Source of the DNA: an uncultured bacterium
Lineage (GTDB): Bacteria > Cyanobacteriota > Vampirovibrionia > Gastranaerophilales > Gastranaerophilaceae
Reading direction: 5' to 3'
Length of the DNA stretch: 64,000 bases
Assembly (NCBI GenBank): GCA_949296425.1
Contig: CASFPN010000015.1
Coordinates: 1 to 64,000 of the forward strand
In this document: positions 4,151-36,653 of the stretch, piece by piece
Position numbering within the stretch: position 1 is the first letter of the stretch
Layout: every line of letters begins with the position of its first letter
Position numbers and translations under genes: made by a program
Notes under the pieces: generated by a model
Databases searched by the model: none
Seen by the model: the letters and a program-made list of their open reading frames with translations, nothing else
Told to the model about the DNA's origin: nothing

Positions 4151-6310
4151 TTAGTGGCATAGAGAGCATTCAGAGCAAGTGCAACCTAAAGCTTCTTTTG
4201 CTTCTTCCATTCTTACTTTGATACGTCCGTCAACTGCTATGCCTTCGCCTGTTGTTTCAGAGATTAGCAACGGGTTAATATCTAATTCATCTATGAATTT
4301 AAAATCAGATACAAGTTGTGACAATCTTAGAAGTGTTTCCTGAATTTGACTAATTTGAGCCGGTTTTGTACCTCTTGCACCTTCAAGAAGTTTGTATGCC
4401 TTGACTGATTTAATCATATCCATTGCATCAACATCTGTCAGAGGAGCAATTCTGAAGGTTACGTCTTTCATAACTTCAACAAATACACCGCCTAAACCGA
4501 ACATCATCATCGGGCCGTATTGAGGATCTGTTGCGATACCGCAAACCATTTCACGGTTTCCTTTAACCATTTCCTGAATGATTACGCCTTCCAAACCGTC
4601 CAGTAAGCCTTTTGCTTCAAGTCTTTCAAGTAATCCTTTATATTCTTTTCTTAATTGTTCTTCTGATTTGATGTTAACAACAACTCCGCCTACATCTGTT
4701 TTATGTGATGTTGTTTTTGATGTCATCTTCATTACAACCGGATAGCCGATAGAGTTTCCGAGTTCAACAACTTCATCTTCATTTGTTGCTAAACCGTATT
4801 TGCATGCACGGATTCCGTAAGCCTGTAATACGTCAATTGATTCAAGAGTTGTTAATTGTGCACGATTTTCTGACAGTGCGTTTTTAATAATTTTTTCAAC
4901 TTTAGCTCTGTCTACATCATAGCAAGGGATTTTCCCTTCTTCTCTTTCCATCCATAATCTTTGCTGATTTAATCTGTTCAAACCGTCGGCAGCCTGTTCG
5001 GCGTACATAAAGAACGGCATATTAACATTCATATCAGACAGTTTTGAGAAGAATTCATTCTTAGTCATAAATACACCGATAATCGGTTTTTGCGGATTTT
5101 TAGCCTTAATTTCCATTAGAGCCTGAGCTACATCAATATCTTTCAAGCCCAAGAACGGAAGATAGATTGTAATAATCATGTCAACATTTTCATCGGCAAT
5201 AACTGTTTCAAGAGTTTGTTTGTAGTGTTCGATAGGTGCTGAGGCAATCATATCTATCGGGTTTTTAACTGATGCGGCAGAAGGTAAGAAGCTTCTTAAT
5301 TTTTCTTTTGTAGCATCAGAAATTTTAGCCATCTGCATACCGTATTCACAAACGGCATCGGTTGCCATGATTCCCGGACCGCCTGAGTTTGTAATGATTG
5401 CTACTCTGTCGCCTTTTGGAATAGGGCAATTTGCAAATACTTTTGCTGTTTCAAACAAGTTCTGCAGAGAAAATTCTCTGATAACGCCTGACTGGTGAAG
5501 CAGTGCTGCCGCAGCTTTATCTGCCCCTGCTAAAGAGCCGGTGTGTGAAGATGCAGCTGAAGCTCCTGCTGCAGAACGACCAGCTTTAAGAGCCAGAATT
5601 GGTTTTTTCTTAGTTACGCGCGATGCTAACTTTCTGAAATTTGCAGGGTTTTGGATTGATTCCATATAAAGCAAAATTTGTTGAACATCGTCGTCATTTT
5701 CCCAGTATTCGATAGCTGTTTCAGCGTTAACATCAGCTTGGTTGCCGATTGAGATGAATTGTGCAAAGCCTAAGTTAAGGTCTTTCAAAATATTCAAAAT
5801 ACCGCCGCCTAAAGCACCTGATTGTGATACGAAACCAATGTTTCCGCGTTCAGGTAAGCTTTCAGCAAAGCAGCCGTCCATTCTGATTTCGGGGTTAGTG
5901 TTTACAACGCCTAAACAGTTAGGACCTACGCATCTCATGCCGTATTCTTTAATTTTTTCTACTAATTGTTTTTCAAGTTCAGCGCCTTCAGCTCCTGTTT
6001 CTTTGAAGCCTGCGGTGATTATACATAAACCTTTGATGCCTTTTTCGTGGCACTGGTCAATTGTTGATAATACAAATTTTGCGTTAACAACGATAAGAGC
6101 AAGGTCAACTTCTCCGGGAACTTCCAAAACAGAAGTGTATGCTTGAAGACCTTCGATAATACCGCCTTTAGGGTTTACAGGATAAATTTTTCCGTTGAAT
6201 TTGTATTCCTGTAATCTTTTCATAATATCAGAACCGATGGTGTGTTCTTTTGTTGACGCACCAATAACCGCGATTGATTTCGGTTTCATAATTTTGTCTA
6301 ACAAAGTCAT
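4151..6310 (-). CDS. Acetate-CoA ligase (ADP-forming), fused alpha-beta subunit
   Basis: 719 residues. Order of domains: CoA-binding Rossmann domain (SIAVIGAST near 13, NPKGG near 47), succinyl-CoA ligase-like domains (GPNCLGVVN near 129, GFVSQSGALGGG near 158, SSHTGSLAGAD near 254 with the His expected to carry the phosphoryl group), a linker, then an ATP-grasp domain from about residue 490 (GYPVVMKMTS, VIIQEMVKG, MMMFGLGG). It makes ATP from acetyl-CoA or related acyl-CoA, giving acetate, the usual last step of fermentation in anaerobes. Here alpha and beta parts are one chain. The C-terminus is Cys-rich (CTCSECSLCH), an uncommon tail that may bind metal. GAAAGGAC precedes the ATG. Confidence 0.92.
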   Translation of the reverse strand: MTLLDKIMKPKSIAVIGASTKEHTIGSDIMKRLQEYKFNGKIYPVNPKGGIIEGLQAYTSVLEVPGEVDLALIVVNAKFVLSTIDQCHEKGIKGLCIITAGFKETGAEGAELEKQLVEKIKEYGMRCVGPNCLGVVNTNPEIRMDGCFAESLPERGNIGFVSQSGALGGGILNILKDLNLGFAQFISIGNQADVNAETAIEYWENDDDVQQILLYMESIQNPANFRKLASRVTKKKPILALKAGRSAAGASAASSHTGSLAGADKAAAALLHQSGVIREFSLQNLFETAKVFANCPIPKGDRVAIITNSGGPGIMATDAVCEYGMQMAKISDATKEKLRSFLPSAASVKNPIDMIASAPIEHYKQTLETVIADENVDMIITIYLPFLGLKDIDVAQALMEIKAKNPQKPIIGVFMTKNEFFSKLSDMNVNMPFFMYAEQAADGLNRLNQQRLWMEREEGKIPCYDVDRAKVEKIIKNALSENRAQLTTLESIDVLQAYGIRACKYGLATNEDEVVELGNSIGYPVVMKMTSKTTSHKTDVGGVVVNIKSEEQLRKEYKGLLERLEAKGLLDGLEGVIIQEMVKGNREMVCGIATDPQYGPMMMFGLGGVFVEVMKDVTFRIAPLTDVDAMDMIKSVKAYKLLEGARGTKPAQISQIQETLLRLSQLVSDFKFIDELDINPLLISETTGEGIAVDGRIKVRMEEAKEALGCTCSECSLCH

Positions 6311-10158: not shown

Positions 10159-12213
10159 TTACTGCTGTGGTTCCGGTTCTTTTAATATATCGGCATATTT
10201 TTGTAATTCATTAAGCAGTGGTCTGCATTCTGTATAAAGATTTTTTCTTAATTCTTTTTTATACGGGCTTTGCAATACTGCTCTGTCTATTTCTGCCTGT
10301 AAAGCTATTTTTAATACTTCGGGAACATTTATTGCAGTTGGATTTTCACTCGCAAGATTTTTATAATATTTATCTATAAAGTCAGGAGAAAGACGTTCCT
10401 GCCAGTTATCTTTTTTATCAACACCGCCGATATTATAAACTATGTCAGTTATGCCAAAAAGATCAGCAAAAGATAATTCAAATTTTTTCCTTGTCATAAG
10501 TTCCGCAAATTTTGCTTTTACACGTTCTGCATCGGCTTTTTTAAGTTCTTCTCCTGTCTTTCTTGTTTGATCAGGGTTACAATCTGAAATTTTATCACAA
10601 AATTCATCCCGTCTTTTGGCTCTGGCCGGATCCTGATTTAAGTATCCTGCAAGATACAAAGGATTCCATGCCTGATTGTTTCTTACCCAGTCTTTTTCCG
10701 CAAGCATTCTCTGTACAGGAATATCATCGTGTGAACCCAGAAGTGCCCAACGTTCATTCCATTTTATTATATTATCTTGTATTGGGAATTTCGAATCAAA
10801 TTTCGGCGTTTCAGCACGTTCCCACTGCAGGGTCATTAATTCCGGAAGTTTAAGCTGATTATAATAGACTTCTTTAAATATATCAGGATTACTGCAAATG
10901 GTTTCCCATATAGGATCTGAGGGCTTCAGATTATGTTCTTTAAGTGTAGGCAATATTATTTTTTCAAGAATTCTCGGGTAGTTATAGTAATCATCAATTT
11001 TTTGTCCGTTTTCTTGTGTCTGGGACATTAAAGAACCTTGTAATTTACCGTAATCAAGATTATGATTTTCGTCAAACGCAATGCTGTCTTTTCTTATAAG
11101 GAAAGGTTCGACAAGTCCCATTACATGGTCAATTCTTGTATTTTCACAAAATTCCAGTGCATAATCCAGTTTATCCTTTATAAATTGGCCGCCTCTGTTA
11201 AGTTTAAGCTCCGGACCTATAAATATTTTTTTAGGGTTAATAACAGGGAGCCACCATAACTGGTGTTTACCGTTTCCTTCATAAGCTCCTATTGAATAGT
11301 TATCCAAAAATACATCTTTATAGCGCCATTCATCCATTTTAGAGCAGCCGATTAGCAGGTCGTTAATATATTTAAAATTATTTTCATCGCGCCATTGTTT
11401 ATTTTCTTTTATTTGTTTTGTTGCAATAAATTGTTCAAACTTATATTGTTCTATTTGCTTTTTATTAGCTTTTTTGATTGTTGCTAATCTGTCTAACGCC
11501 TCAATATCTCCATTTGCAACGTAATCCATCAGGTTTTTATCTAAATCATTGTCCCAGTCTTCAAATTTGTCGGTTTTATAATGGTTGGCAAGTACTTTAA
11601 AGACGCCTTCATCGGTTAAACGTTTGTTGTGCCGTTTTAAAAACTGTTTAAATTCTTTATCAAGAGCTATAGCCTGAGGCTGGCCTTTTGCGAGGTTGGC
11701 TTTGAAGTTGTTAAAACTTTCTGTGAGTGCGGTGTCATAAGTCTTTAATGCTTCATTAAAGTTTGTGAGAGCATAGTCTTTATCTGTAATTTTAGGGATT
11801 GAAGTTACTTTATTAAATGTTTCGCCGGATAAAATGTTGCCGTAATTATCAGTTGTAAGCTCCTCAAGATCAATAAATAATTTGTTTTTTGCAAACGCTG
11901 AAGAATTGTAGGGAGAAGGTTTAAGCATTCCGGGGCTCATCATTTCTAATTCTCCTCCGGGCCCAAGCTGATTGCCGTTGAAGCCGTATAACTGGAGAAA
12001 TTTCATGTATTTCTTTGCAGCTTTTCCGTATGGGGAACCGATATAGGAGTCATACCCCAAGGCAGGAAAACATGACCCATGGGTTATTATAATGCGGTCT
12101 TTTGTGCCCATTAATTCAAATGTTTTTTGGCATGCCGCCTTTAAACCCGGTTCTTCTTCTTTTGTCGGCCGTCTTTCAAACGTGACAGTATTATTTATCC
12201 CTAAAATTTTCAT
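10159..12213 (-). CDS. 4-alpha-glucanotransferase, divergent GH77 (MalQ-like), tagged
   Basis: 684 residues. It begins MKILGINNTVTFERRP, which looks like the tag seen on other proteins here. GH77 signatures in order: SPYNSSAFAKNKLFIDLEEL near 103-122, RIDHVMGLVEPFL near 360 with the predicted nucleophile Asp, an ETICSNP region at the place of the usual EDLG acid/base motif, and GSHDDIPVQRM near 518 (usual form GTHDN). The enzyme transfers glucan segments between alpha-1,4-glucans in maltodextrin or glycogen turnover. Catalytic Asp and Glu appear kept but the motifs are clearly drifted, so activity should be viewed with care. The 1374-residue GH13-like protein at 51091 has a similar tag and may act in the same pathway. 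Confidence 0.85.
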   Translation of the reverse strand: MKILGINNTVTFERRPTKEEEPGLKAACQKTFELMGTKDRIIITHGSCFPALGYDSYIGSPYGKAAKKYMKFLQLYGFNGNQLGPGGELEMMSPGMLKPSPYNSSAFAKNKLFIDLEELTTDNYGNILSGETFNKVTSIPKITDKDYALTNFNEALKTYDTALTESFNNFKANLAKGQPQAIALDKEFKQFLKRHNKRLTDEGVFKVLANHYKTDKFEDWDNDLDKNLMDYVANGDIEALDRLATIKKANKKQIEQYKFEQFIATKQIKENKQWRDENNFKYINDLLIGCSKMDEWRYKDVFLDNYSIGAYEGNGKHQLWWLPVINPKKIFIGPELKLNRGGQFIKDKLDYALEFCENTRIDHVMGLVEPFLIRKDSIAFDENHNLDYGKLQGSLMSQTQENGQKIDDYYNYPRILEKIILPTLKEHNLKPSDPIWETICSNPDIFKEVYYNQLKLPELMTLQWERAETPKFDSKFPIQDNIIKWNERWALLGSHDDIPVQRMLAEKDWVRNNQAWNPLYLAGYLNQDPARAKRRDEFCDKISDCNPDQTRKTGEELKKADAERVKAKFAELMTRKKFELSFADLFGITDIVYNIGGVDKKDNWQERLSPDFIDKYYKNLASENPTAINVPEVLKIALQAEIDRAVLQSPYKKELRKNLYTECRPLLNELQKYADILKEPEPQQ

Positions 12214-12268: not shown

Positions 12269-13747
12269 TTAAATTTCTGAAATTATTTCTATTTGTGAAT
12301 TACAACCAATTTCTTCACGTGAGAGTACTGCAATATTATTCATGTAGTTGCTTAAAAGTGTGAATATCAGATGTCTAAATTCAAGCGGAACAATCAGTTT
12401 CGGATTTTCAATATTTAATTTGCGTACTTGTTTGTTTATTTTTTCAGCCAACTGTTCTGCAAAATCAGCATCAATTCGTATTATGGCATCGTCATCCTCA
12501 TCAAAATTCGGGCAAAATTTTGATAATGTTGTTTCTGAAATTTCAAATGCACTTATGACACCTTCCGAATTTTGATTGTTTTTGCATATTTGACGTGAAA
12601 GTGATAATCTCAGTTTTTTTATCAAATCGGATTTTGTGCTGTCAGCGGCAAAATCGTTAATTTTTTCGAAAATTGATGTGATATCTTTTATTGATATTTT
12701 TTCTCTGACAAGGCTTGTTAAAACAAATCTTAAATCGGACAGCGAAAGAAAATCCGGAATAATATTTGATATCAGAAATTCATTCGTGTTTGTTACAACA
12801 TCAATATATCTATCCAATTCATTATAGTCAAGGAGATCGTCGACATATTTTACCGCACAAAATTCAAGAGCCTGTGATATATATGCGGCACTCGAAATCC
12901 CTTCCTGCCAAAAATCTTTTGCCTTATTTTTTTCAATCCAGATTATTTTTCGCCCTGTTATTTTATCAATATCTGGTATTGAATCTTTGATTTTCTTTTC
13001 CAGATGCAATTGATCCGTATAGAACATTAAAAATCCGGGATATACACAAGATTTGAAAACTTCAAGACCTTTAATTTTTATGCAAAATTCATAAGGATTC
13101 AGATTTTCATCGTCTTTAAACACAATTTTCGGGATTATAAATCCGAGTGTTTCTGTGAGTTTGAGTCTGGATTTAACTGTTTCTGAGATGAGTTCTTCTT
13201 CTAATATTTCCTGATTTGGGTTTACATAACCAAGTATTTCTTCGCTTAACAGTATTGACAATTTTTCTTCTTTAAGCATAGAATACATAGCATCCGGGGA
13301 TGTTGCCCTTGCAAGTTTAAGCTTTAAGTCTTCTAACTCTTTTAATCCGGCTGATATTTTATCATTAAGTTTTTTTCTGTTCACTGAGGCGGGTGCTTCG
13401 CCTTCTAATTCTGCTTTTATTTTTGCAATTTTTGTTTTCTGTTCTCTTATTTTTTCCTGAATTTCAAGACAGATGTCATAAGGCGATTGTTCAGGTGAGA
13501 GCATTTTTTCCATCTGGCTTTTAAATGTTGATATGTTTATAACGTCAGCATTTGTTTCAGGAGTGCCGTATTCCGCCTCTTTCATAAAAATGCAATGACA
13601 TAGAACCTGGCCTTCTTCATTTTCAACTTCTTGCATGCTATAGAGTTCCCAGTTGTTCATTGACATTTCATTCAAAAGATTCTGTAATTCCTGGGTATTG
13701 TCACTTGAACAGGTTTTTATTACATATTGTAATTTTTTGTTAAACAT
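12269..13747 (-). CDS. Soluble FlhA C-terminal (FHIPEP) domain protein with DUF4177-like N-terminus
   Basis: 492 residues without any membrane segment. Residues 1-57 (QYVIKTCSSDN...NNWELYSMQEVENEEG) match the DUF4177 pattern; 92-145 is a charged coiled coil. From about 165 the chain follows the FlhA cytoplasmic domain step by step: LTETLGFIIPKIVFKDDENL, then YEFCIKIKGLEV, IIWIEKNKAKDFWQEG, IPDFLSLSDLRFVLTSLVRE, ISIKDITSIFEKINDFA, and the final PLEFRHLIFTLLSNYM...VLSREEI. FlhA normally has about 320 residues of membrane helices before this domain; they are absent here. In flagella and type III secretion this domain receives chaperone-substrate complexes at the export gate. It starts three bases after udp, as the last gene of a bamA-ompH-udp run. 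Confidence 0.85.
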   Translation of the reverse strand: MFNKKLQYVIKTCSSDNTQELQNLLNEMSMNNWELYSMQEVENEEGQVLCHCIFMKEAEYGTPETNADVINISTFKSQMEKMLSPEQSPYDICLEIQEKIREQKTKIAKIKAELEGEAPASVNRKKLNDKISAGLKELEDLKLKLARATSPDAMYSMLKEEKLSILLSEEILGYVNPNQEILEEELISETVKSRLKLTETLGFIIPKIVFKDDENLNPYEFCIKIKGLEVFKSCVYPGFLMFYTDQLHLEKKIKDSIPDIDKITGRKIIWIEKNKAKDFWQEGISSAAYISQALEFCAVKYVDDLLDYNELDRYIDVVTNTNEFLISNIIPDFLSLSDLRFVLTSLVREKISIKDITSIFEKINDFAADSTKSDLIKKLRLSLSRQICKNNQNSEGVISAFEISETTLSKFCPNFDEDDDAIIRIDADFAEQLAEKINKQVRKLNIENPKLIVPLEFRHLIFTLLSNYMNNIAVLSREEIGCNSQIEIISEI

Positions 13748-13750
13748 ATA

Positions 13751-14521
13751 TTACTCCTTGGATTGTGATATAAGAATTTTTAAGGCTTCAATTGCTGTTT
13801 TTATTGCTTTGTCTGCGTCATGGACAACAGGATTTTCAAGATTTTGTTTTTCTCTTTCCTGATTTGCAACAGTTAAAAATACTGAACCGACTTTTACTTT
13901 TAAAAGGCTTGCTACAATAAACAGAGCCGCTGATTCCATTTCTGATGCCAGACACCCCAGTTTTTTCCAGGCTTCCCATTTATTTATGAGTTCATAGCTT
14001 ACGGGCATTTGTTCAGGATAATGCTGCCCATAGAAAGAATCTTTGCATTGGACTATACCTGTATGGTATTCAAAATTAAGATTTTGTGCTCCTTTTACAA
14101 GGGCATTTATGATATCCAGATTTGCAACCGCGGGGAATTCTATCGGGGCATATTCTTTTGAAGTACCTTCCATTCTGATTGCACCTGTTGCAATTACAAT
14201 ATCACCGCCTTTGACATTAATATCAATACCGCCACAGGTTCCTACACGTATAAATGTTTCTGCACCGACCTTAACAAGTTCTTCAAGAGCTATTGCAGCT
14301 GACGGACCGCCTATACCGGTAGAAGTTACACTTACCTTAACTCCGTTTAAATAACCGGTATAGGTCGTAAATTCGCGTCTGTCTGCAATCAACTGTGCGT
14401 TTTCAAAATATTCGGCAATTTTTTTACATCGTTTCGGATCACCCGGTAATATTACGTATTGTCCCACATCGCCGGGTTTTAATCCTATATGATACTGTTC
14501 ATTATTTTCCGAATAATTCAT
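13751..14521 (-). CDS. udp: Uridine phosphorylase (nucleoside phosphorylase family)
   Basis: 256 residues. [19 protein letters not shown] near 22-40 is the phosphate-binding start of the PNP/UDP family; [17 protein letters not shown] near 68 and IRVGTCGGI near 90 form the ribose/phosphate site; [14 protein letters not shown] near 190 holds the ME-S substrate motif of uridine phosphorylases. It cleaves uridine with phosphate to uracil and ribose-1-phosphate in cytoplasmic pyrimidine salvage. A purine substrate cannot be fully excluded from motifs. Gaps to the genes on both sides are 3 and 17 bases, so it is cotranscribed with ompH and the FlhA-domain gene. Confidence 0.9.
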
Positions 14522-14538
14522 TATTATTTATTCCCTTT

Positions 14539-14997
14539 TTAGTATTTTCCGCTTTTTAATTTTTGGATTACGATATCTGATATATCAACGCCGCCGACAA
14601 AGATTACCCTGTAATCCAAAACGGCATCCAGTTTTTGCTGTACAAGAACTTCTTTTGTAGCTGCCTGAATTTTGTTGTAAACCTGTTCTTCTTTTTGATT
14701 TTTTAATCTCATGTAAGCTTCTTCTTTAAGTTTGAATTCACGAGCTGTTTGTTCTTCAAAATTTTGTTTTTTCAAAGGTGTGTCCAATGATTTGTATTGT
14801 TTTTCTTTGTCAACCATATATTGCTGCATTTCAAGAGCTTTGGCATCAATTTCTTTGATAGCCTGTTGTGCAAACGGGAAGTTTGCCTGAACTTTTTGAT
14901 AATCAATGTAACCTATTCCGGCTGCATTTGCCTGATTGCCAAATGTCAAAAACAAACCTGCCGTCATTAAAAGTGCTGCTAATTTAAATTTTTTCAT
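14539..14997 (-). CDS. Periplasmic chaperone of the OmpH/Skp family
   Basis: 152 residues. The signal peptide is MKKFKLAALLMTAGLFLTFG with cleavage near NANA|A. GIGYIDYQKVQANFP just after it is the conserved beta-strand start of OmpH/Skp, followed by a long charged coiled coil (about 40-120), the tentacle of the trimer, and the closing VLDYRVIFVGGVDISDIVI segment. Family members hold unfolded outer-membrane proteins in the periplasm. It follows bamA by 25 bases, the classic bamA-skp order, which supports the call. Confidence 0.9.
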   Translation of the reverse strand: MKKFKLAALLMTAGLFLTFGNQANAAGIGYIDYQKVQANFPFAQQAIKEIDAKALEMQQYMVDKEKQYKSLDTPLKKQNFEEQTAREFKLKEEAYMRLKNQKEEQVYNKIQAATKEVLVQQKLDAVLDYRVIFVGGVDISDIVIQKLKSGKY

Positions 14998-15022: not shown

Positions 15023-16978
15023 TTAGTACATTATGTCGCCTACACCAAAAGTAAAGTAACCGCTTCTGTTACCGTTATCACCCGGGTTGGTAAGCGGAAT
15101 ACCGTAATCAATTGACAACGGTCCCATTCCCGGAATATACAATTTTAACCCTATACCTGCAGATACCGCGTATGTCGGTCTGTCGTATATCTGATCCGTA
15201 ATTGACGGGTTAAATATTTTACCGGCATCAGCCCAAACCGTAAATCTCAAATTGTTTAAGAAGTTTATGCGCGTTCTGTCAAGAAACGGAATAGGAGTTG
15301 CAAATTCCGCACTTCCCATAATGAACGCATCACCTGTACCTACACCGCTCATTTTAAAACCTCTTACGGTATAGGGGCCGCCTAATCTGTATGCCATTAC
15401 TTCAGGCATGTTGTCGCCGTGAATTTTGCCGCCGCCTTTGGCAGTGAATGACAGTGAAGATTTTTTACCCACAGGAATGTATTGTTTTACCATACCGGTT
15501 AATTTTCCGTGTGTTTTGTCAAAGTCAATAATTCCGATTTCTTCATCAAATCTGATACTTGCCATTGTACCTTTTCTTGTAACAGTCGCATTATCACGTG
15601 TATCGTAAAGCAATGCGGGACTCAGAGAAAGGAAAAAACCGCCTTCAAGCTGTTTTGCACGTTCGGAAATCGGGATATTATATTTAGAATAAAGACTGCT
15701 GATTTTATTTCCGTCGCCTTCTGACACATCAATATTTTCAACACCGAGTGTGAATGTCGATGTTACATGTTTGTTGCTTTTCATTCTGTGAGCAACAGTT
15801 GCTTCTGCACCGATTCTTCTTTCGATTGCAAGCGGTACCTGATAGCTGCCGAAGTCTCTGTAGAAAATTTTACTCATTAAAGAAGTATCTGCATTATAGA
15901 AATATGGCTTAAAGTAGCTTAATTCCGCCTGAAGATTCATTCTTCTTTTGATAGAGGCATCGTTTAATATTACACCGGTACCTGCTATACCGTTTAAGGC
16001 AAGTCTTTCGTTTCGTCCCAGAAAATTATTATCAGCAATTCCGACTGAACCGAATACACCGGTTACAGAGTCGATACCGCCTCCAATGGAAACACTTGCG
16101 GTTCTTTGTTCTTCGACATTGATTGTAATATCGTATGTGTCAGGTTCTTCAGTCGGTTCAATTTCTCTTGTAACATCTTTAAAAGCCTGTGTTGCATATA
16201 ACCTGACAAGATCTTCTTTTAAAAGGTTTTCATTATAAATCATACCGGGTTCTGTAAGGATATTTCTTTCAATTACATAATCCTTTGTTTTTTCATTTCC
16301 GGCAATCATTATTTTGTTAATAGTACCTTCTTTGATACTGATATTTACCGTACCGTCAGGATCATCAGTCACAGAGTCAATTCTTGCAAGGATGTATCCT
16401 TTTGAACTGTAGCAATCCTGAATTTTTGCTATTGCTTCATTAAGTTCGGCAATATTTTGGGGTTTACCTTTCATGGGCATGAGATAGGTAAGTATTTCAT
16501 CGGTAGATATAACGGTATTGCCCTCGATTGTAAAGTCTGTAATCGGGGCGTTTTCTTCAAGGATAATTTTTAAGGTAACGGTACCGTCATGATTGTTGAC
16601 GGGGATAGCTTTCATATTTTCCGTGAAATAACCAAGCTGATAAATCGCTTTTAAATCGTCTTTGATTGCGGATTTGCTGTAAGTACCGCCTTTTTGAAGC
16701 TGCATTTGTTGAAGTATTAAGGAGGTTTCAATAACGTTGTTTCCAAGGATTTGTATATCTTTTATTGTTCTGGAACCATTGGTATCTTTATTTTTTACTG
16801 CAGATGTTTCAAGTTCCGGACTTTCTTCTGTCTGTATGGCAGAAGGCGGCTGGAGTTCATGTATTCCGGAATCAACCGTATCTCCCCAGAAGTTTTCTTC
16901 TGAAAAACTCTGCAAAGGACACAGGAAAACCAATAGCAGGGCTGTTAAAGATATATATATTTTATTTATTAAGTTCAA
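15023..16978 (-). CDS. bamA: Outer-membrane assembly factor BamA/Omp85
   Basis: 651 residues. Signal peptide at 1-26 (LLLVFLCPLQSFS). POTRA repeats follow: IKDIQILGNNVIETSLI near 73, ITDFTIEGNTVISTDEI near 150 and INKIMIAGNEKTKDYVI near 225. The C-terminal 16-strand barrel (about 300-651) contains the RLGGPYTVRGFKMSGVG segment near 545 with the VRGF motif that interacts with the barrel lumen, and ends in FTFGVGDIMY. It inserts beta-barrel proteins in the outer membrane, so the cell is diderm. It heads the bamA-ompH-udp-FlhA-domain run. Confidence 0.93.
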   Translation of the reverse strand: MNLINKIYISLTALLLVFLCPLQSFSEENFWGDTVDSGIHELQPPSAIQTEESPELETSAVKNKDTNGSRTIKDIQILGNNVIETSLILQQMQLQKGGTYSKSAIKDDLKAIYQLGYFTENMKAIPVNNHDGTVTLKIILEENAPITDFTIEGNTVISTDEILTYLMPMKGKPQNIAELNEAIAKIQDCYSSKGYILARIDSVTDDPDGTVNISIKEGTINKIMIAGNEKTKDYVIERNILTEPGMIYNENLLKEDLVRLYATQAFKDVTREIEPTEEPDTYDITINVEEQRTASVSIGGGIDSVTGVFGSVGIADNNFLGRNERLALNGIAGTGVILNDASIKRRMNLQAELSYFKPYFYNADTSLMSKIFYRDFGSYQVPLAIERRIGAEATVAHRMKSNKHVTSTFTLGVENIDVSEGDGNKISSLYSKYNIPISERAKQLEGGFFLSLSPALLYDTRDNATVTRKGTMASIRFDEEIGIIDFDKTHGKLTGMVKQYIPVGKKSSLSFTAKGGGKIHGDNMPEVMAYRLGGPYTVRGFKMSGVGTGDAFIMGSAEFATPIPFLDRTRINFLNNLRFTVWADAGKIFNPSITDQIYDRPTYAVSAGIGLKLYIPGMGPLSIDYGIPLTNPGDNGNRSGYFTFGVGDIMY

Positions 16979-28051: not shown

Positions 28052-29791
28052 TTATGTACTGAACATTGTGAATACTTTTTCAACATTTTTGCTGATTAGG
28101 TTTTTAACCGTATCATATTCTGTTGTTAATGCGGATAATTCAGTATCTATATTCTTCATCTTTAATTCAAGAGTTTCTTCTTTGTAGTTTAATTTATTTT
28201 TTGTCAATTCATATTCAAGTTCAGCCTGTGCAATAGCTTCTTCATCAGTAACTTCCTGAACATAGCCGTTCAATATATAAGCCCCCTGATAAAAATATCC
28301 GTCTGTATTCAAACTTGATATAAATAATTGCCCGTTTTTCAACGCTTGCATTAAATATTCTGGGTCGCTGACCATGTCACGTTTGATTGAATCAGTTGTG
28401 GCTCCGTTCATACATATCTGGTTATACAACTGGTTATAAAAATCAGTTGTTAATAAATCAGTTTCAGTAACTGCAGCTTTTTCCTCAAGTAAAAAAGTAT
28501 AATTTAAGTCATCCGTTGCATAAGTACTGTCTTTAACGGAATCATTAACACTAAATAAAGTTTCCTGTAAACCGTCAATAGCAATTGCAAAGTTTGTTAT
28601 ATAAGATTTTAAAAGGTTGGTCAAATTTATGGTTTCAACCCCTTTATCAGTCTTTACAATACCATTGTAGTTCTTTGATTCATTTGTAGAATTTGCAACT
28701 GCATGCGCAGTTGAAACACCTGTTGTCGATGTTGCAGGATCACCTATCAACAGTGATTCCGTAAACTCCATCGCAGTTTGCAACGCGTTATTGGCTTCCA
28801 TGTCAACATTTAAACCTATACCGTTAGCAGTAGTAGAACCAGGAGCATATCCCAAAAGTGTTGCCATTGCTTTAAGCATTTTACTTGCTTTACCATCTTG
28901 CCCGCCAATACTGCCAACAACAGTCATTGCATAATTCCCTGATAACAAATCTCCCAGTGAAAGATTTTGGATTTGTTCTCTGGAAAGAGCCGTTCCGTTT
29001 TGGGTGATAATTATTTTACCATTATCATTCGTAGTATCAGGAGAGGTTGTGTAACAGAACGTCTTATCCCAAGCTGCATTGATATCCTCGGTATTTATAG
29101 TCCCATCACTATTTGTATCGGTAACCTCAACTCCCAACGCACTTAAAAGGCCATACGTTCCTAATATACTGTCATTAAGTCCATATTTTAAATCGCCTTT
29201 TTTATGTGTATTAGTGTCTTCGTCATATTCTGCACCTAATGCTTTTATAAACGAATTACTTGTTAATGCATTTGCAATTGTTTTGTCAATAATTTCTCCG
29301 CCAATACCTGCTTTGGTATATTCATAAGACTTGACAGAATTTGCCGTGGAGAAAGCTATTTCCCCTTTGCTTGCCATTTCATCTATAAATTTATTCCTCA
29401 TTTCTTGCGTAAATAAATCTACAGCGTTACCGTCAGCATCGGAATGTATGGGATCACCATTTTCATCAATTATGCCGGCAGCTACCGCAGCATCAAACAT
29501 AGAATCCGTAAGGACAACCTTACCTTGTCCGTCAGTTATAATATACGGGTTATAATCATTAAGAGCGGAAGGTGTCATCAACAACTCATAAGACAAGTCA
29601 TAAACTTCATCCATATCTGTGTCCCAGACAAGTTTTGTGGCGTTTAGGGCATTTTGATATTTTGTAGTGGCAGACTGCAAATCACGGGTAACAGAAAGTT
29701 TGTCCTGAGCAATCTGCATGGACTGAAATTCACAGTTCATTTTCCGTGAAGTTATGGCTAAAAATCTTGCTTGTGATGCCGCCAATCCCAT
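28052..29791 (-). CDS. MGLAASQ-type secreted protein, hook-associated/flagellin-like ends
   Basis: 579 residues. It begins MGLAASQARFLAITSRKMNC, then a heptad-like helix to about 55, and ends with a second long helix (EEAIAQAELEYELTKNKLNY; ELKMKNIDTELSALTTEYD; VKNLISKNVEKVFTMFST). Paired N- and C-terminal helices around a variable Thr/Asn/Asp-rich centre (about 60-500) is the architecture of flagellin, hook-associated and other type III export substrates. There is no Sec signal peptide. From memory the MGLAASQAR start recurs in this group of bacteria. A calcium-loop-like DTNSDGTINTED segment lies near 227. Probably exported to the surface by a flagellum-type system; the assignment is by architecture. 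Confidence 0.6.
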   Translation of the reverse strand: MGLAASQARFLAITSRKMNCEFQSMQIAQDKLSVTRDLQSATTKYQNALNATKLVWDTDMDEVYDLSYELLMTPSALNDYNPYIITDGQGKVVLTDSMFDAAVAAGIIDENGDPIHSDADGNAVDLFTQEMRNKFIDEMASKGEIAFSTANSVKSYEYTKAGIGGEIIDKTIANALTSNSFIKALGAEYDEDTNTHKKGDLKYGLNDSILGTYGLLSALGVEVTDTNSDGTINTEDINAAWDKTFCYTTSPDTTNDNGKIIITQNGTALSREQIQNLSLGDLLSGNYAMTVVGSIGGQDGKASKMLKAMATLLGYAPGSTTANGIGLNVDMEANNALQTAMEFTESLLIGDPATSTTGVSTAHAVANSTNESKNYNGIVKTDKGVETINLTNLLKSYITNFAIAIDGLQETLFSVNDSVKDSTYATDDLNYTFLLEEKAAVTETDLLTTDFYNQLYNQICMNGATTDSIKRDMVSDPEYLMQALKNGQLFISSLNTDGYFYQGAYILNGYVQEVTDEEAIAQAELEYELTKNKLNYKEETLELKMKNIDTELSALTTEYDTVKNLISKNVEKVFTMFST

Positions 29792-30247: not shown

Positions 30248-31537
30248 TTAAAGCGTTATAGGCCAGTAAAAATCCACAAGATATGATGCGGCATCCATCG
30301 GATGTGATAAAAATTTTAGCTCTTTTGATTGTTTTATCTGCTGGTATGTCGGAATATCAATACGTGATGAACCTTCTCTATATCGCAAATTATATATATT
30401 ATAAAGAAGTTTTTCGCATTTTTTGTCAACAAAAAGACACACTTCACCATCTGCAGAGCGAACTTTAGCATTGAATGCGGCTATTCTGTTTTTTATCGGC
30501 GGGTTAAAGGCTTTAATTTGAATTTCTGCATCATAGCCGTACTGAAGAAGTTTTTTCTTTATAATTACATAGTTTGTATATTCGCTCGTACAGCTTCTGT
30601 TGTCACCGGATGCGTCGCCGTTTACAATAATTCGTCCCTTATGAGCGGGATAACGTCTGAAAAATTCATCACATGCTTTAGCGGTTGTAGTATTTTCCAG
30701 TGCTATTTCGTCAAAATAAAAAACTTTGTCATCAGTTTTATGCGCAAAAACCCAGCACATAGGATCAACGTTAAAATCGCAGGAAATATGCAAATCCATA
30801 TCCGGTTGATATGTTATGTTTTTTATATTTGCATCGGTAAAATCTTTTATAACAAGTCCGTTATTATATTCTCCGTTCTGCGCAAGTACAAAAATATTGT
30901 AATATTGTTCATCGTAAAGTTTTTTCAATTCATCGCAAAAACCTTCCGGCAGATAAATATTCTGGGTTGTCGGGGCGGTAATAAGCCTGTAATTTGGAGC
31001 AGGATTTTCCACAAATGTTTTATAAATCCAGCCCCTTTGCATTTCAGGGTTAGTATGCCCGAAAATACGATAGGTAAAATTTTTCCAGATCTTTTTAACT
31101 CTCTGCCTCATACGTCCCAGAAGCATTTTAAAAGTGTCATAAGGAATATCAGACATTTCCTCAATCTCTACAAACCCCAAATTTAAAGACTTTAATTTAT
31201 TAGGTTCATCAAAATGCCTGAAAAGAATTTCCGAACCGTTTTTGAAAGAGAGTTTCTGCAAAGTTGAAGACCATTCATAATCTTTTCCGTCTACAAAACC
31301 GAAATTTTCCAGATGTTCAAAATAAGTCTGTAACGTTGTATCTCTCACAAGAGTATAAGTTTGGGCGCCGACTAACCCGCGTACTCCCGGGAACTTTAAC
31401 GCAAGCAAAATCCCGAGAAGCGAGCCTGCAAAAGTTTTCCCCGAACCGTAACCTCCCTGATAAACTGCAACATCCAGAGTATAATCATGCGGAATTTCCA
31501 AAAATTCCCGCTGTGCTTTTAATAATTTGTACAACAT
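30248..31537 (-). CDS. Phage terminase large subunit
   Basis: 429 residues. VYQGGYGSGKTFAG near 25-38 is the Walker A motif; FVEIEEMSDI near 121 is Walker B with its catalytic Glu; GHTNPE near 158 is the coupling motif. The C-terminal nuclease domain shows ISCDFNVDPMCWVF near 249 (first acidic residue), IIVNGDASG near 303 and HPMDAASYLVDF near 412 (last acidic residue). All key acidic residues seem present, so the motor could be active. It packages DNA into the procapsid through the portal. It lies three bases after the preceding gene. Confidence 0.92.
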   Translation of the reverse strand: MLYKLLKAQREFLEIPHDYTLDVAVYQGGYGSGKTFAGSLLGILLALKFPGVRGLVGAQTYTLVRDTTLQTYFEHLENFGFVDGKDYEWSSTLQKLSFKNGSEILFRHFDEPNKLKSLNLGFVEIEEMSDIPYDTFKMLLGRMRQRVKKIWKNFTYRIFGHTNPEMQRGWIYKTFVENPAPNYRLITAPTTQNIYLPEGFCDELKKLYDEQYYNIFVLAQNGEYNNGLVIKDFTDANIKNITYQPDMDLHISCDFNVDPMCWVFAHKTDDKVFYFDEIALENTTTAKACDEFFRRYPAHKGRIIVNGDASGDNRSCTSEYTNYVIIKKKLLQYGYDAEIQIKAFNPPIKNRIAAFNAKVRSADGEVCLFVDKKCEKLLYNIYNLRYREGSSRIDIPTYQQIKQSKELKFLSHPMDAASYLVDFYWPITL

Positions 31538-31539
31538 AA

Positions 31540-32190
31540 CTACTTCCGTCTGTAATAACCTTTCACCTCTGTTCCGTCGCTGCGTTTATAACCTTTCACA
31601 TACACAGCATCACCTGACTGAATAACATTTTTTACATCCTTTTCAGACATTACATCCCCTCTGGATAAGGCTTTGTCAATAAGTTTTTTATTTATTTCAT
31701 ATTCATCAGGTGACATTGAGTCGATTTCTTCTCTTGTATAAATTCTTCCGTTATAAGGACTTGTTTCAAAATCTCTCAAGTCTTTTATTGTTGTAATCAT
31801 TTCGCCGTTTTTCATACGGTTATAAATCTTTTCGACAATCATATCTTCAAACATTTTTTGAGTTGTGAGATGTTTGAAATGACTTGTTTCATTTTTAACT
31901 TCTTCGCCAATCTCTCTGCCAATTGCGTTATTCCACAAGTCCATATTACGTTCACCTGCAGGCTGAGTATGTGTAATATCCCCGATTTTTTCATACACAT
32001 CCCCGACGAATTTAGCGTTTCCGGCTCCGCTGTTTGCCGTAATATAAGCCTGCATAAACGCATGTCTAAAGGCGTCAATTTCATCATCCCATCCCGGACT
32101 TACTTCATTTTCTTTTAAACCATATTTTTTCCCGTATTCCATAGCTTTGTTTTCATAGTACAAAGGCATCTGGTATTTTTTTGCAGCCAT
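31540..32190 (-). CDS. Phage-cassette protein with DAFRHA / MDLWNNAIGR motif
   Basis: 216 residues from ATG 32190, chosen by GAAAGGAG upstream. WDDEIDAFRHAFMQAYITA near 34-52 and NMDLWNNAIGREIG near 87-100 match, from memory, the DUF6973-like pattern (DAFRHA..., MDL-x-NN-x-x-GR), with His and Asp/Asn that look catalytic or metal-binding. A middle segment carries IYTREEIDSMSPDEYEINKK, the T-R-E-x-I-x-x-M module also seen in two other proteins of this cassette. The C-terminus is VYVKGYKRSDGTEVKGYYRR. Possibly a cell-wall or virion-associated enzyme. Confidence 0.6.
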   Translation of the reverse strand: MAAKKYQMPLYYENKAMEYGKKYGLKENEVSPGWDDEIDAFRHAFMQAYITANSGAGNAKFVGDVYEKIGDITHTQPAGERNMDLWNNAIGREIGEEVKNETSHFKHLTTQKMFEDMIVEKIYNRMKNGEMITTIKDLRDFETSPYNGRIYTREEIDSMSPDEYEINKKLIDKALSRGDVMSEKDVKNVIQSGDAVYVKGYKRSDGTEVKGYYRRK

Positions 32191-32210
32191 AAAAATTCTC
32201 CTTTCTAAAA

Positions 32211-32237
32211 AAGCCACCCGTTTGTGCGGATGACTTA
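32211..32237 (-). terminator. Terminator-like hairpin after the 32235 gene
   Basis: On the minus strand AGTCATCCG and CGGGTGGCT pair (with G-U pairs) around CACAAA, followed by TTTTTT. It ends at the start of the next gene's Shine-Dalgarno region. Confidence 0.5.
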
Positions 32238-32666
32238 ATGTGTAATATAAAACTTTTGATTTTCTATTCTTAAATTTACTTTATCTGCCGGAATACATCG
32301 TTTATGATAATCAATCTTATCACTTGTATATAACATTGATGCGCCTATGTAAAAAGGTATTATATTACCGTTATTTTTTACCAGAACTACTGAAGATGCA
32401 CCCTCTCCGGCAGGAGTTGTATATATTCTAAACCCTATAAAAGGGCTGTATTTTGCATTAATTCTTTCTAATTCAGGCTTAATAGAGCTGATACTATATA
32501 TGGAAATAAAGTAACAAATATACTTTGTATCTTTAATTTCGGTTTTGTAAGTTATATTTTTATTTTTCAAGGCAAGATTAATATATTTCAGATCGGGGTT
32601 TGAATTTTTGATTATGCCGAATATAATAATCAAAATAATAGGAAATAATATTAAAATCTTTTTCAT
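32235..32666 (-). CDS. Small membrane-anchored or exported hypothetical protein
   Basis: 143 residues. A hydrophobic N-terminus (ILILFPIILIIIFGIIK) serves as anchor or signal. The rest is a small beta-rich domain (YICYFISIYSISSIKPELERI; FIGFRIYTTPAGEGASSVVLV; IPFYIGASMLY) ending in KVNLRIENQKFYITH. No family recognised. Inside the phage cassette it is one of two exported-type proteins with no evident virion function, suggesting cargo or later insertion. Confidence 0.55.
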   Translation of the reverse strand: MKKILILFPIILIIIFGIIKNSNPDLKYINLALKNKNITYKTEIKDTKYICYFISIYSISSIKPELERINAKYSPFIGFRIYTTPAGEGASSVVLVKNNGNIIPFYIGASMLYTSDKIDYHKRCIPADKVNLRIENQKFYITH

Positions 32667-32739
32667 TTAAACATTATAACTTAAAACATATTTTTTAGTA
32701 TTACCCGAATAGATATTTTATTTTTAAATACTGAGAAAA

Positions 32740-33114
32740 CTAATCTTTAATTAAAACATGATTCCCGTTAATTGTAACCCATTTCCCTTCTGAAGAATCG
32801 CCTGACCTTTTGTCTGCTGAAGATTTGCTGACTGATTTTTCTGTTTTTTCAACAGAATTTTGAGAATATTGGCTGCGTGAATTGCCTATTTTGTTGCTTG
32901 CCAGACGATTATCAATTTCACGCTCGTAAACAGCAAATAAATCAGGATTCATTTGCGCGATATCTTCTCTTGTAATATCAGCATCGGAAATTTTATTAAT
33001 AAATAACGGATGTGATTTTTTGTATTCCTCCACGGGAACTGACTGCATACAATCGCCCATATCATCTATTCCGTGCGACTGAACAGAACCGAAAGGTGTT
33101 GTTGTCTTTTTCAT
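32740..33114 (-). CDS. Phage-cassette protein with T-R-E-D-I module
   Basis: 124 residues from ATG 33114, chosen because AAAGGAG lies upstream. It begins MKKTTTPFGSVQSHGIDDMG, then has DITREDIAQMNPDLFAVYER, a copy of the T-R-E-x-I-x-x-M module, a Ser/Lys-rich linker and the end GKWVTINGNHVLIK, a motif I recall from phage head proteins. Likely a virion or scaffold-associated protein. Its start overlaps the 3' end of the next gene upstream by 53 bases in another frame. Confidence 0.55.
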   Translation of the reverse strand: MKKTTTPFGSVQSHGIDDMGDCMQSVPVEEYKKSHPLFINKISDADITREDIAQMNPDLFAVYEREIDNRLASNKIGNSRSQYSQNSVEKTEKSVSKSSADKRSGDSSEGKWVTINGNHVLIKD

Positions 33115-33268
33115 AAAGAACTCCTTTAAAATTGCTGCCGCGGTCATAATTATTATCAACCACTTTCCAGCCGTTAGATGTTATTTCGCCTTTATATTCA
33201 GGTCTTGACATTTTGTTTGCTTCCGAGCACAAAATTTTGTATTCGTTAGCCATTGCGTGTTTGTTCAT
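33062..33268 (-). CDS. Small phage-cassette hypothetical protein
   Basis: 68 residues. AAGGAGG precedes ATG 33268, a very strong site. MANEYKILCSEANKMSRPEY and GWKVVDNNYDRGSNFKGVLY look like a small globular domain; the end FRFCSVARNR is read from DNA that also encodes the start of the next gene. The overlap of 53 bases may mean translational coupling, or that this ORF is a truncated version of a longer protein. Function unknown. Confidence 0.5.
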   Translation of the reverse strand: MNKHAMANEYKILCSEANKMSRPEYKGEITSNGWKVVDNNYDRGSNFKGVLYEKDNNTFRFCSVARNR

Positions 33269-33304
33269 TTTTTCCTCCTTTTTTAGTGAACATACCAGCT
33301 GCTA

Positions 33305-33345
33305 TCTGTCACCCTGAATTTATTTCAGGGGCTAAAATTATCAAA
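33305..33345. repeat. Palindromic dispersed repeat, divergent copy
   Basis: GTCACCCTGAATTTATTTCAGGGGC near 33307 is a diverged copy of the GTCATCCTGAACTTGTTTCAGGATC unit at 58984. It lies in the spacer between 33268 and 33469 inside the phage cassette; such chromosomal repeats inside a phage region suggest long residence. Confidence 0.55.
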
Positions 33346-33415
33346 ATATAATCATTCGACCCGGTTCAGAATGGCTATATTTGACATGCTAAATGCAAAT
33401 TTTGCATTAAAATAA

Positions 33416-33436
33416 AACCGCTGTTTTTAAGCGGTT
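33416..33436 (-). terminator. Intrinsic terminator after the 33469 gene
   Basis: AACCGCT (33416-33422) and AGCGGTT (33430-33436); read on the minus strand it is followed by TTATTTTAA. Just downstream a second palindrome AATGCAAA-TTTGCATT lies at about 33392-33407. Confidence 0.65.
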
Positions 33437-33468
33437 AGTAAAAAATCATACTTCTCAGCTATTCTTAA

Positions 33469-33933
33469 TTATTTGCTTGTATTAATTCCTATTGAAAAAA
33501 TTTCTTTATTATCTTTAAAAGAACCACCAATACTTATATCAATTTCATCATATCGTTGAAATCCCAGATATATTCTCATGTGCATCTCATCGACATTCAT
33601 TCCTTCTCTAAACGGGAGCGGTTTTACTGACAATATGATTTCTTTTACTTTTTTATCATAGTAGTCATTTTGGAAGATGGCACCTTTCATACCTTTCATT
33701 TCTCCGTCACGGGTTAATATAAATTCATATTCTGCTCCCCAGCCGCGAAGACGAAACATTTTTTTTGAATCCAAGGCCTGTTTTAAGGCTTTGCCATAAT
33801 CTTCAAGATAACCCCAGTATATTGGGTTAGTTTCTTTCGTTACTTTTATTCCTGCACCGGTAGGAGGGAATTCCTCGCCTAAGACAGGAATTTGAAATAT
33901 TAATAATAGTAATATTAAAATTAATTTTTTCAT
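33469..33933 (-). CDS. Exported TonB-C-like protein
   Basis: 154 residues from ATG 33933. Signal peptide LILILLLLIFQIPVLG|EE. The mature part has WGAEYEFILTRDGEMKGMKG, DYYDKKVKEIILSVKPLPFR, the pattern of TonB C-terminal domains (A-x-Y-x-F, D-G, PLP). There is no TonB membrane helix-proline linker, so it is a freestanding periplasmic domain. It sits within the phage cassette with its own terminator and so is likely a moron or chromosomal insertion. Confidence 0.6.
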   Translation of the reverse strand: MKKLILILLLLIFQIPVLGEEFPPTGAGIKVTKETNPIYWGYLEDYGKALKQALDSKKMFRLRGWGAEYEFILTRDGEMKGMKGAIFQNDYYDKKVKEIILSVKPLPFREGMNVDEMHMRIYLGFQRYDEIDISIGGSFKDNKEIFSIGINTSK

Positions 33934-33991
33934 AATCATATTCTACTAAAAAAGTTTTATTTGTATATAGACTTTTTGCTATTTAAATCGA

Positions 33992-34014
33992 ATAGTGCCG
34001 CATAGCGGCACTAT
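33992..34014 (-). other. Hairpin over the portal-gene stop codon
   Basis: ATAGTGCCGC (33992-34001) and GCGGCACTAT (34005-34014), a perfect 10-base stem with an ATA loop. It overlaps the stop codon at 34011-34013. The flank on the minus strand is only weakly T-rich, so it may be a terminator or an RNA-stability element. Confidence 0.55.
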
Positions 34015-35675
34015 GACTTGTTATTTTCAAGCAAAAAATTGTTTGAATTTTCTACTCCATACTGTTCAAGAACAAATTTGAAGCATTCGAGCCAATCAAT
34101 TTTTTCTTCAACTTCAGGCACTTGAGCAAATGAACTTACAATTTCAAAAAGTTCTTTCAATTTTGCCTTGCGTTCAAATGTTGCCTTACGATCCCCGTAC
34201 CTGTAAACATAATCAGCATTTCTAATCTCATCTGTTATCTCCAGAAAACTTGTTTTTCCGCGGTCATTTACGCCGATAATTTCAGTTCCGAGTTTAAAAT
34301 AAGAGATAATCTCGGCTGTTTTTTCGACCATAGGAACTATAATCTTCCTGTTTATTGCATCCAGTATCATATTCAAACGAGCTTCCTGCCCGCTAACCGA
34401 ATAATTAAGTTCCGTTGCGGTACGCTGTGCCGTCTGAATATTTCCTGCCATATTCTTGAAAATACCTGTCGCACTTTCAATTGTTGATTTAAAATAATTT
34501 AAGAAGTCCCAGCCGACCATTGCTTTGTCAAATGACAAAGGAGTCGGTGAAGCCGGCATTAATGCAGCATCATACTCTATAATTTTACCGGGTTTTACAT
34601 CCTGCTGTCCCTTAAAGCAGCCCTTTGGAGCAAGGTACGGAGGGTTCATCATCAAGGCAAGCGCATCAACCTGCTTATTCATTATTGTTGATGCAAGGTT
34701 ATTCAAAATAAGCGCAACTCTCAACGGTGAAATGCCGCGCCTTGTATATGGTGATTCAATTATATTTGCATGAATAAACGGATTCATCACAAACGGATTG
34801 CTTTCAAATCTTATTATTTCCCTTCTTGCAGCAACAACAATGAGCCAGTTTTTCAATAATTTTCCGTTTGAAAGTTCAATATCTCCCCAGTATTCCAAAA
34901 TTTCTACCTTTTTGCCCTCAACCGCTCCGTCATTATCATCGTTATTAGGGTATTTTTTACCGGCCACCACTCCTTTCAATACTTCCAGTTTTGTATCATC
35001 AAGCAGGTTGTTTGCTTTGTCCGCAAACAATTCATCTATTGTTGAATAAGTACGGTAAATCTTTGCACACTTATCCCAGTTGTCAAGATTATATTTGTCA
35101 AACACAAAATCTTCGGATTTTATATGTCTCACTTTCGGATTGTCATAAACAACTTTTTCATCTATTACAAATCTCTTTGTATCAGGATTTAAAATTTCTT
35201 CTTCAATTGTTTTAGGGCGTCGTACTGATTTTATTTTTGTTTCCCAACCTACAAAAAGCGTACTTTCACCTGTTTCTACGATACTGTCAATAACTTTTTC
35301 AATTTCATTTTCAATCTTCATATTTTCAAAAGTATTAACAAGCATTGCCTTTTGTTTATTCGCAAAGCCTTGTGTTGTCGGGGTTGTACCTGTTACATCA
35401 AACATTGCATCCGGATGTGAATACAAATTTTGACTGATATGAGATTTTAAAGTCTGAGCAAGTTCATAAATATCGGGGAGTTCAATTTTATTGTCCCAAC
35501 CGTTAATTTTAGGGATATCAGAACTGTAAACAGCATCCCTGACAAGTTTTATATCTGATAATTGTGAACTTCTCTGTTCATTAAAACGATCATATTTTTC
35601 CGTTATGTTTCCCAGTAAAAAACTTTCTTCCACATCAGAAAGCTTCTGTGTTAAATCTTCTGTTTCAATTTTCAT
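34011..35675 (-). CDS. Phage portal protein
   Basis: 554 residues. The order of segments fits a podoviral portal: an N-terminal helical part (LLGNITEKYDRFNEQRSSQL), DIYELAQTLKSHISQNLY, a beta-rich stem/wing (YDNPKVRHIKSEDFVFD; VEILEYWGDIELSNGK), then NPFIHANIIESPYTRRGISP and a crown-side helical region with IMNKQVDALALMMNPPYLAP. Twelve copies would form the DNA channel at one capsid vertex and dock TerL. It is the longest gene of the cassette. No sign of truncation. Confidence 0.85.
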   Translation of the reverse strand: MKIETEDLTQKLSDVEESFLLGNITEKYDRFNEQRSSQLSDIKLVRDAVYSSDIPKINGWDNKIELPDIYELAQTLKSHISQNLYSHPDAMFDVTGTTPTTQGFANKQKAMLVNTFENMKIENEIEKVIDSIVETGESTLFVGWETKIKSVRRPKTIEEEILNPDTKRFVIDEKVVYDNPKVRHIKSEDFVFDKYNLDNWDKCAKIYRTYSTIDELFADKANNLLDDTKLEVLKGVVAGKKYPNNDDNDGAVEGKKVEILEYWGDIELSNGKLLKNWLIVVAARREIIRFESNPFVMNPFIHANIIESPYTRRGISPLRVALILNNLASTIMNKQVDALALMMNPPYLAPKGCFKGQQDVKPGKIIEYDAALMPASPTPLSFDKAMVGWDFLNYFKSTIESATGIFKNMAGNIQTAQRTATELNYSVSGQEARLNMILDAINRKIIVPMVEKTAEIISYFKLGTEIIGVNDRGKTSFLEITDEIRNADYVYRYGDRKATFERKAKLKELFEIVSSFAQVPEVEEKIDWLECFKFVLEQYGVENSNNFLLENNKS

Positions 35676-35807
35676 TTTTTTACCCTTTCTATTTTTTAAG
35701 AAATTTAAAAGCCCAGTAGGTCAAGCCTGTTAGAATATAGTTAGGAGAGTAGAGCTGTCTATCTTCTTATAACTTGGGCTGCCTTCTGGATTTTTGTTCT
35801 TTTCGTT

Positions 35808-36302: not shown

Positions 36303-36653
36303 TTAAAATACTGCTTTCTCAAATTTTATATAGCAGTCATCGGTTGTAAACACATCCAATTCCCCTTGAAGCATCTTTTTTCTTATTATATCCTGTATTC
36401 CGATATAAGCATCCGCTTGGATTCCGTTTATATATGTTTCACACTTTGTATTTCTGTTAAAGCAACGGAAAACAGAATTTTTAGAAAAAATTTTGTCCTT
36501 CGGAACATCTTTTATATTTGTATATTCAATTTTTTTTGGTTTTTCTTTTGCTTTTTTAAAATCTTCCATAAATTCTTTTTCAATACGCATCTTTATCAAT
36601 TCATCCAGAGATGCATTATTCAATAATATTTCTTCCGCATCATTATTTTTCAT
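36303..36653 (-). CDS. Hypothetical protein between TerS and GNAT
   Basis: 116 residues from ATG 36653, chosen by AAGGAGA upstream. It is charged (LDELIKMRIEKEFMEDFKKA; KEKPKKIEYTNIKDVPKDK) with CFNRNTKCETYINGIQADAY near the middle; no membrane segment. Begins 20 bases inside the 3' end of TerS in another frame, so the pair is coupled. Family not recognised. Confidence 0.55.
   Translation of the reverse strand: MKNNDAEEILLNNASLDELIKMRIEKEFMEDFKKAKEKPKKIEYTNIKDVPKDKIFSKNSVFRCFNRNTKCETYINGIQADAYIGIQDIIRKKMLQGELDVFTTDDCYIKFEKAVF

Follow-up and report, generated by a model that had tools for sequence, protein, structure and literature searches.

To our knowledge, every FlhA/SctV protein has its sorting platform attached to the membrane gate, which makes the role of the platform by itself difficult to assess. 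Within FlhA, according to the available text of two studies, the GYXLI switch occupies residues 368–372, and D456, F459 and T490 belong to a chaperone dimple (PMC10965912; PMC5789064). Flagellar export proteins can also be kept where there is no flagellum. In Chlamydia pneumoniae, which has no flagella, FlhA, FliI and FliF are kept and interact mutually and with parts of the injectisome; its FlhA has the transmembrane part, and the text of the study, as far as it was available, describes no separate soluble paralogue (PMC2830194). Incomplete flagellar gene sets of Gastranaerophilales, which are relatives of cyanobacteria from the gut, were explained, in the accessible portions of Soo et al. 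(PMC4040986) and Di Rienzi et al. (PMC3787301), by loss or ongoing reduction. The latter account also mentions two flhA genes in ACD20, one of which might, at a guess, be the soluble gene described here. A literature search covering titles and abstract openings, with subscription journals and supplements largely outside its reach, found neither a soluble FlhA_C paralogue nor a second export system in Gastranaerophilales.

Architecture of the soluble FlhA_C paralogue

The window, which is the whole stretch of 64,000 nucleotides analysed here, carries at positions 12269–13747 of the minus strand an intact open reading frame of 492 amino acids, while the plus strand of the same interval is full of stops. 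As established by the sequence comparisons, this protein is a paralogue of the cytoplasmic domain of FlhA that stands on its own, with a DUF4177-like domain, a predicted helical hairpin and no predicted transmembrane segment. This is essentially what the earlier note on this DNA had read from the letters (a soluble FlhA_C with a DUF4177-like module and a coiled coil), and the DUF4177 label is the weaker part of it. The FHIPEP profile PF00771 matches residues 142–481 (12305–13324, minus strand) with 163.7 bits and E 8.6e-48, in agreement with profile matches to solved FlhA_C structures. The match covers profile positions 321–653 of 657, as expected from the claim of homology over the whole length of the domain, and the positions before 321, which describe the N-terminal multi-pass membrane domain, are unmatched. 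The absence of the membrane part, also claimed beforehand, is seen as well in the hydropathy profile: none of 18 homologues has a 19-residue Kyte–Doolittle window above 1.6, compared with 3.0 in the full-length FlhA1. Against the NCBIfam model of FlhA (TIGR01398) the protein scores 156.6 bits, far below the whole-protein equivalog cut-off of 772.1, which is expected because the membrane half is absent. SctV/YscV gate proteins (TIGR01399) belong to the same superfamily and are matched more weakly than FlhA, again without the membrane half (81.6 bits, below the equivalog cut-off of 692.25). When solved structures were searched by sequence at E ≤ 1, all 21 matches were named as FlhA/SctV-family proteins, and a profile built from 21 orthologues matches the B. 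subtilis FlhA_C in the PDB at E 1.5e-46.

The N-terminal domain (residues 1–57; 13577–13747, minus strand) is defined by Pfam matches in homologues and by conservation in the alignment. Its likeness to DUF4177 (PF13783) is found in 11 of 21 homologues at E ≤ 10 (best member 3.2e-4), and the window protein itself gives no match. Conservation of the domain extends to all 18 aligned orthologues, across seven families, with Y8, L25, N26, M28, W33, L35, Y36, E40, C52, I53 and F54 invariant. At E ≤ 1e-20 its occurrence in the 58 relatives is limited to the soluble protein (in 55 of them); elsewhere in these genomes there are weak matches only, the best (E 0.0025) being a short frame with a stop. Against solved structures the domain gives two chance-level matches (E 0.7 and 0.76), and a literature search on DUF4177, judged by titles, found no paper on secretion gates. 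Behind it, a helical hairpin is predicted at residues 89–148 (13304–13483, minus strand) in two low-confidence AlphaFold models, one of the protein alone and one with 18 close homologues (mean pLDDT 45.0 and 44.2, too low for judging the FlhA_C fold). Its helices span residues 89–115 and 122–148 (124–148 in the second model), with a local pLDDT of about 63–86.

A protein that consists of half of FlhA raises the question of whether the gene is truncated, decaying or an assembly artefact, and the missing membrane half is what such an explanation would predict. We consider this to have next to no probability. The search for a full-length flhA in the genome, proposed in the earlier note, found one (FlhA1, 703 aa) at a separate locus (G000:C46:20763-22751, E 3.1e-219), where it adjoins fliH, fliF and fliE; the soluble gene is therefore not one half of a broken gene. 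Orthologues have open frames of 473–519 aa in 55 of 58 relatives and share the N-terminal domain described above. The median dN/dS of the gene against 18 loci of the genus is 0.046 (12 comparisons with finite dS), and these findings together rule out the reading as a fragment or pseudogene. The gene is under strong purifying selection; its value is similar to those of ompH (0.047) and bamA (0.058) and lower than those of malQ (0.144) and rsmI (0.103).

Gene neighbourhood and distribution

The soluble gene lies in a minus-strand run of bamA (15023–16978), an ompH/skp-like gene (14539–14997), a udp-like nucleoside phosphorylase (13751–14521), the soluble gene itself and, downstream, a malQ-like 4-alpha-glucanotransferase (10159–12213), with gaps of 25, 17, 3 and 55 bp. 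The udp-like gene, 3 bp upstream, is likely on the same transcript. Cotranscription with bamA, ompH and udp, as proposed in the earlier note, agrees with the close same-strand run, from whose spacing a shared transcript is inferred; scans for promoters and terminators gave counts near the shuffled expectation. The position of the gene outside the flagellar genes was confirmed for this genome. Across the genus, the order udp–soluble gene–malQ is found at 18 of 18 loci and ompH/bamA stand beside it at 17 of 18 (locus L036 ends first). In G033, of a sister genus, the bamA–ompH neighbourhood is kept, with a 440-aa gene in place of udp. Elsewhere in the window, an ORF run at 30248–41567 resembles, by eye, phage terminase, portal and capsid genes, and is likely a prophage.

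Such a setting could suggest that the FlhA_C fold was reused outside secretion for another cytosolic task, for example with the adjoining nucleoside or envelope genes. The neighbours in its own family are in favour of this idea, as is the lack of a conserved link to export genes. Yet, the neighbours change: at the 15 loci listed from other families they differ, and since they vary between families the local operon is a poor guide to function. The earlier suggestion of a new role at the envelope is not supported on the same ground, as the bamA–ompH setting is kept in the genus and in G033 and gives way to other neighbours at those 15 loci. The homology over the full length of FlhA_C also speaks against a task outside secretion, and so does the confinement of the gene to Gastranaerophilales, whose 57 searched members all have export genes. 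We regard this reading as rather unlikely, and nevertheless as a real rival.

In a first search the soluble protein was found in 55 of 58 relatives, the own genome included; the three without it are G034, G054 (83% complete) and G057, which belongs to another order. Among Gastranaerophilales genomes at least 95% complete, 236 of 237 have the gene and only G034 is without it. Presence was called at a best E ≤ 1e-120, where FlhA1 alone gives about 1e-80. With the same profile, and with 13 genomes of Gastranaerophilales as a control set, the gene was found in 0 of 42 genomes of other orders of the class; the matches in these 42 start at model position 112 or later, correspond to the FlhA_C of other FlhA forms and never include the N-terminal domain. 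Scanning 84,980 species with a sequence pattern, a method that reaches close relatives only, gave 18 loci, all named as Gastranaerophilales or uncultured bacterium.

The retention of the soluble gene follows the core export set and not the filament. Flagellin is found in 100 of the 237 genomes and is missing from 137, including the own genome (no matches), and the soluble gene is present in 100 of 100 and 136 of 137 of these, respectively. The co-occurrence check proposed in the earlier note links the gene to a flagellin-less export system; as it is present in nearly all genomes, the co-occurrence is weakly informative. G034 (98% complete) keeps FlhA1 without the soluble gene, which indicates that the latter is not strictly needed. 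The idea that G034 lost its rod along with the soluble gene was rejected, as weak FlgB/FlgC-type matches are found there. FlhA1 alone is likewise seen in G306, G312 and G382 (91–94% complete). The possibility, raised in the earlier note, that the soluble protein replaces the export gate is not supported, because a full-length FlhA1 is present in the same genome and at least two FHIPEP genes are found in most of the genomes sampled from the class; the exceptions that bear on this are G210, G301 and G321 (90–97% complete), which showed the soluble gene alone and no FlhA1 match.

Another option is that the protein is an accessory of the true flagellum (system 2), for example when export changes over from hook to filament. 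In G040 the soluble gene is just upstream of fliJ-fliK-flgD-flgE of the flagellar kind (flgD named by eye), a hook-type gene lies 3 kb from it in G045, and in G037 and G039 flagellins are encoded less than 5 kb away. The retention of the gene in nearly all flagellin-less genomes strains this explanation, which we consider very improbable. Because the soluble gene is kept without flagellin, it most likely serves the filament-less system 1, and not the flagellum or the adjoining envelope genes.

The filament-less export system

In genomes without flagellin, system 1 is made up of FlhA1, FlhB, FliPQR, FliO, FliF, FliE, FliH, FliI, rod and hook-like proteins and one SpoA protein, and flagellated relatives have a second, canonical flagellar set besides it. 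In the own genome, FliP, FliQ, FliR, FliO and a 396-aa SpoA protein are encoded in one run, and FlhB, FliE, FliF, FliH, rod proteins including FlgC and a 278-aa hook-like protein are also present, together with FliJ-like (E 0.0012) and FliK-like (E 1.4e-5) matches that are both under the cut-off. The FliI-type ATPase of the system lies in the window (44885–46231, minus strand) and shares 78% identity with the system-1 FliI of G040 and 51% with the flagellar FliI of that genome. FlhA1 scores 702 bits against the flagellar equivalog cut-off of 772, compared with 852 for the FlhA2 of G040, and FliI1 scores 558 against a cut-off of 630, compared with 656 for FliI2.

The two sets can be seen side by side in G040, where several gene names were assigned by eye from translations. 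Set one (L056) contains flgB, flgC, an SLT transglycosylase, fliE, fliF, two FliG-position proteins, fliH, flhA1 and fliI; set two (L093, with FlhA2 elsewhere) contains flgB/C, fliE, fliF, a true FliG, fliH and fliI. The tandem FliG-position proteins (L056:5942-6505 and 4971-5930) are a conserved part of the system and can be called FliG-like by position only: a search of this family against solved structures gave no meaningful match (best E 0.011, a designed protein), and the member of the own genome has no Pfam match. In G044, FlhA2 and FlhA1 stand tail to tail, 2 bp apart (L075:6862-11087), and the two export systems meet. The window also encodes a 579-aa protein (28052–29791) that starts with MGLAASQARFL and has no NCBIfam match, and similar starts are found near an FlhA1 locus (L052:11988-12314 and 13623-14882). 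Proteins of this type could possibly be exported by system 1, which is a guess; the regular expression MGxxxSQAR missed the window's own member and its matches are no census.

Copy numbers were compared in the set of 58 relatives. Flagellin is found in none of the 35 genomes of family f1 and in 21 of the 22 of families f2–f7, the exception being G047; in the larger sample, family f1 includes flagellated genera. FlhB has one copy in 35 of 35 f1 genomes; of the 22 genomes of f2–f7, 16 give at least two matches, counting fragments, and six give one. SpoA (FliMN_C) is a single ORF in all 35 f1 genomes (matched in two pieces in G033) and gives three matches in 20 of 22 f2–f7 genomes, with one in G047 and two in G054. 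By its predicted gene content, system 1 is related to the flagellum and is a non-standard, filament-less system of flagellar type. That the soluble gene persists nearly throughout the order, also where a filament is missing, suggests a modified secretion machine and not a decayed flagellum. What is retained here differs from the published partial flagellar sets in that it forms a second, paralogous system, equipped with FlhA, FlhB, FliI and SpoA of its own and accompanied by a soluble FlhA_C.

Altered residues and possible function

The places of the functional motifs of FlhA were located by alignment to full-length FlhA: the GYXLI switch falls on residues 168–172 (13232–13246, minus strand) and the D456–G460 part of the dimple on residues 261–265 (12953–12967, minus strand). 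Judged by these aligned residues, both motifs are mostly rewritten. G368, present in 48 of 48 full-length FlhA, is a serine (S168) in all 18 soluble proteins, and position 370 is a glutamate (E170) in all of them, so that GYXLI as a feature of FlhA membership is lacking. D456 is kept in 17 of 18; an aromatic residue at position 459 is found in none, compared with Y in 11 and F in one of the order's FlhA1 and F in 18 and Y in one of FlhA2. At position 490, T is outside the five commonest residues, and H491 is kept in five of 18, compared with 12 of 12 FlhA1; as a membership feature the D456/F459/T490 dimple is likewise missing. Among the 42 columns of the C-domain that are conserved at 90% in the 48 full-length FlhA, 12 are kept, 20 partly kept and 10 lost. 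A like count gives 39 of 43 for the FlhA1 group, 34 of 84 for FlhA2 and 36 of 52 for the f10–f12 group. The low number of kept columns also adds to the case for a task outside secretion. The earlier note had also suggested that the protein may compete with the export gate platform or bind chaperones; as the dimple is largely lost, it seems unlikely that the protein binds the usual chaperones in the usual way.

One explanation of this pattern is a decoy, i.e., a negative regulator that would hold substrates or enter the FlhA1 ring and throttle export by system 1. The overall FlhA_C and D456 are kept while the aromatic dimple residue and GYXLI are lost, as in a domain that docks and cannot cycle, and GYXLI mutants were reported, in the available text, to be impaired in export switching and chaperone binding (PMC10965912). 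Yet, such a decoy need not persist almost throughout the order under the strong constraint seen here. We consider it unlikely, and count it with the role outside secretion as a real rival to a secretion factor.

In a tree of 68 cytoplasmic domains the soluble proteins form one clade (support 100/100) on a long branch. When three long rows are removed, the clade stands beside FlhA1 with a support of 91.7, which is not firm, and AU tests reject neither the FlhA1 of Gastranaerophilales alone (p 0.244) nor FlhA2 (p 0.381) as sister. Other shortened forms were also observed. Three f1 genomes, two of the own genus and one of g27, encode proteins of 593–594 aa (L090:7123-8907, L089:1272-3056, L155:6042-7823) with, by eye, an N-terminus like that of the FliG-position proteins and a short hydrophobic stretch, followed by FlhA_C; FHIPEP matches the two that were scanned at E 8e-51 and 2.7e-46. 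Further shortened FHIPEP proteins of 289–335 aa are found at L156:6146-7036, L157:5972-6979 and L131:6998-7867, the last adjoining FlhA1 in another order. It seems that FlhA_C was detached several times in the class, and some of these proteins may be decaying copies.

We suggest that the soluble protein probably acts in docking or sorting, with an altered specificity, or else modulates the FlhA1 ring. The more specific form that we tentatively favour is a cytosolic docking or sorting factor for the filament-less system 1. In the cytosol the protein would bind either a class of substrates or the ATPase complex and hand them over to the FlhA1 ring, possibly while seated beside or inside that ring. 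Attachment or oligomerisation, in place of the membrane anchor, would fall to the N-terminal domain and the hairpin. Given the rewritten switch motif and dimple, the ligand would be expected to be something other than the chaperones commonly used by flagella. Against a role in system 1, a direct physical or operon link between the soluble gene and system-1 genes is absent at the examined loci, and the place of the gene in G040 speaks for the flagellum in that genome.

As a natural case of a free-standing platform, found order-wide, the protein opens the function of the platform alone to testing. The "incomplete flagella" of gut Gastranaerophilales also appear in a different light, as the genes that remain resemble an export system of their own that is under selection and could release proteins into the gut. 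It is possible, if somewhat doubtful, that this is a third kind of type III machine, derived from the flagellum and filament-less, in which the platform is split into a membrane-bound FlhA1 ring and a detached, cytosolic FlhA_C for sorting. If so, sorting and gate would be physically separate, the sorted proteins would be a new class of exports, and the other detached or re-fused FlhA_C forms in the class would represent repeated attempts at such a separation.
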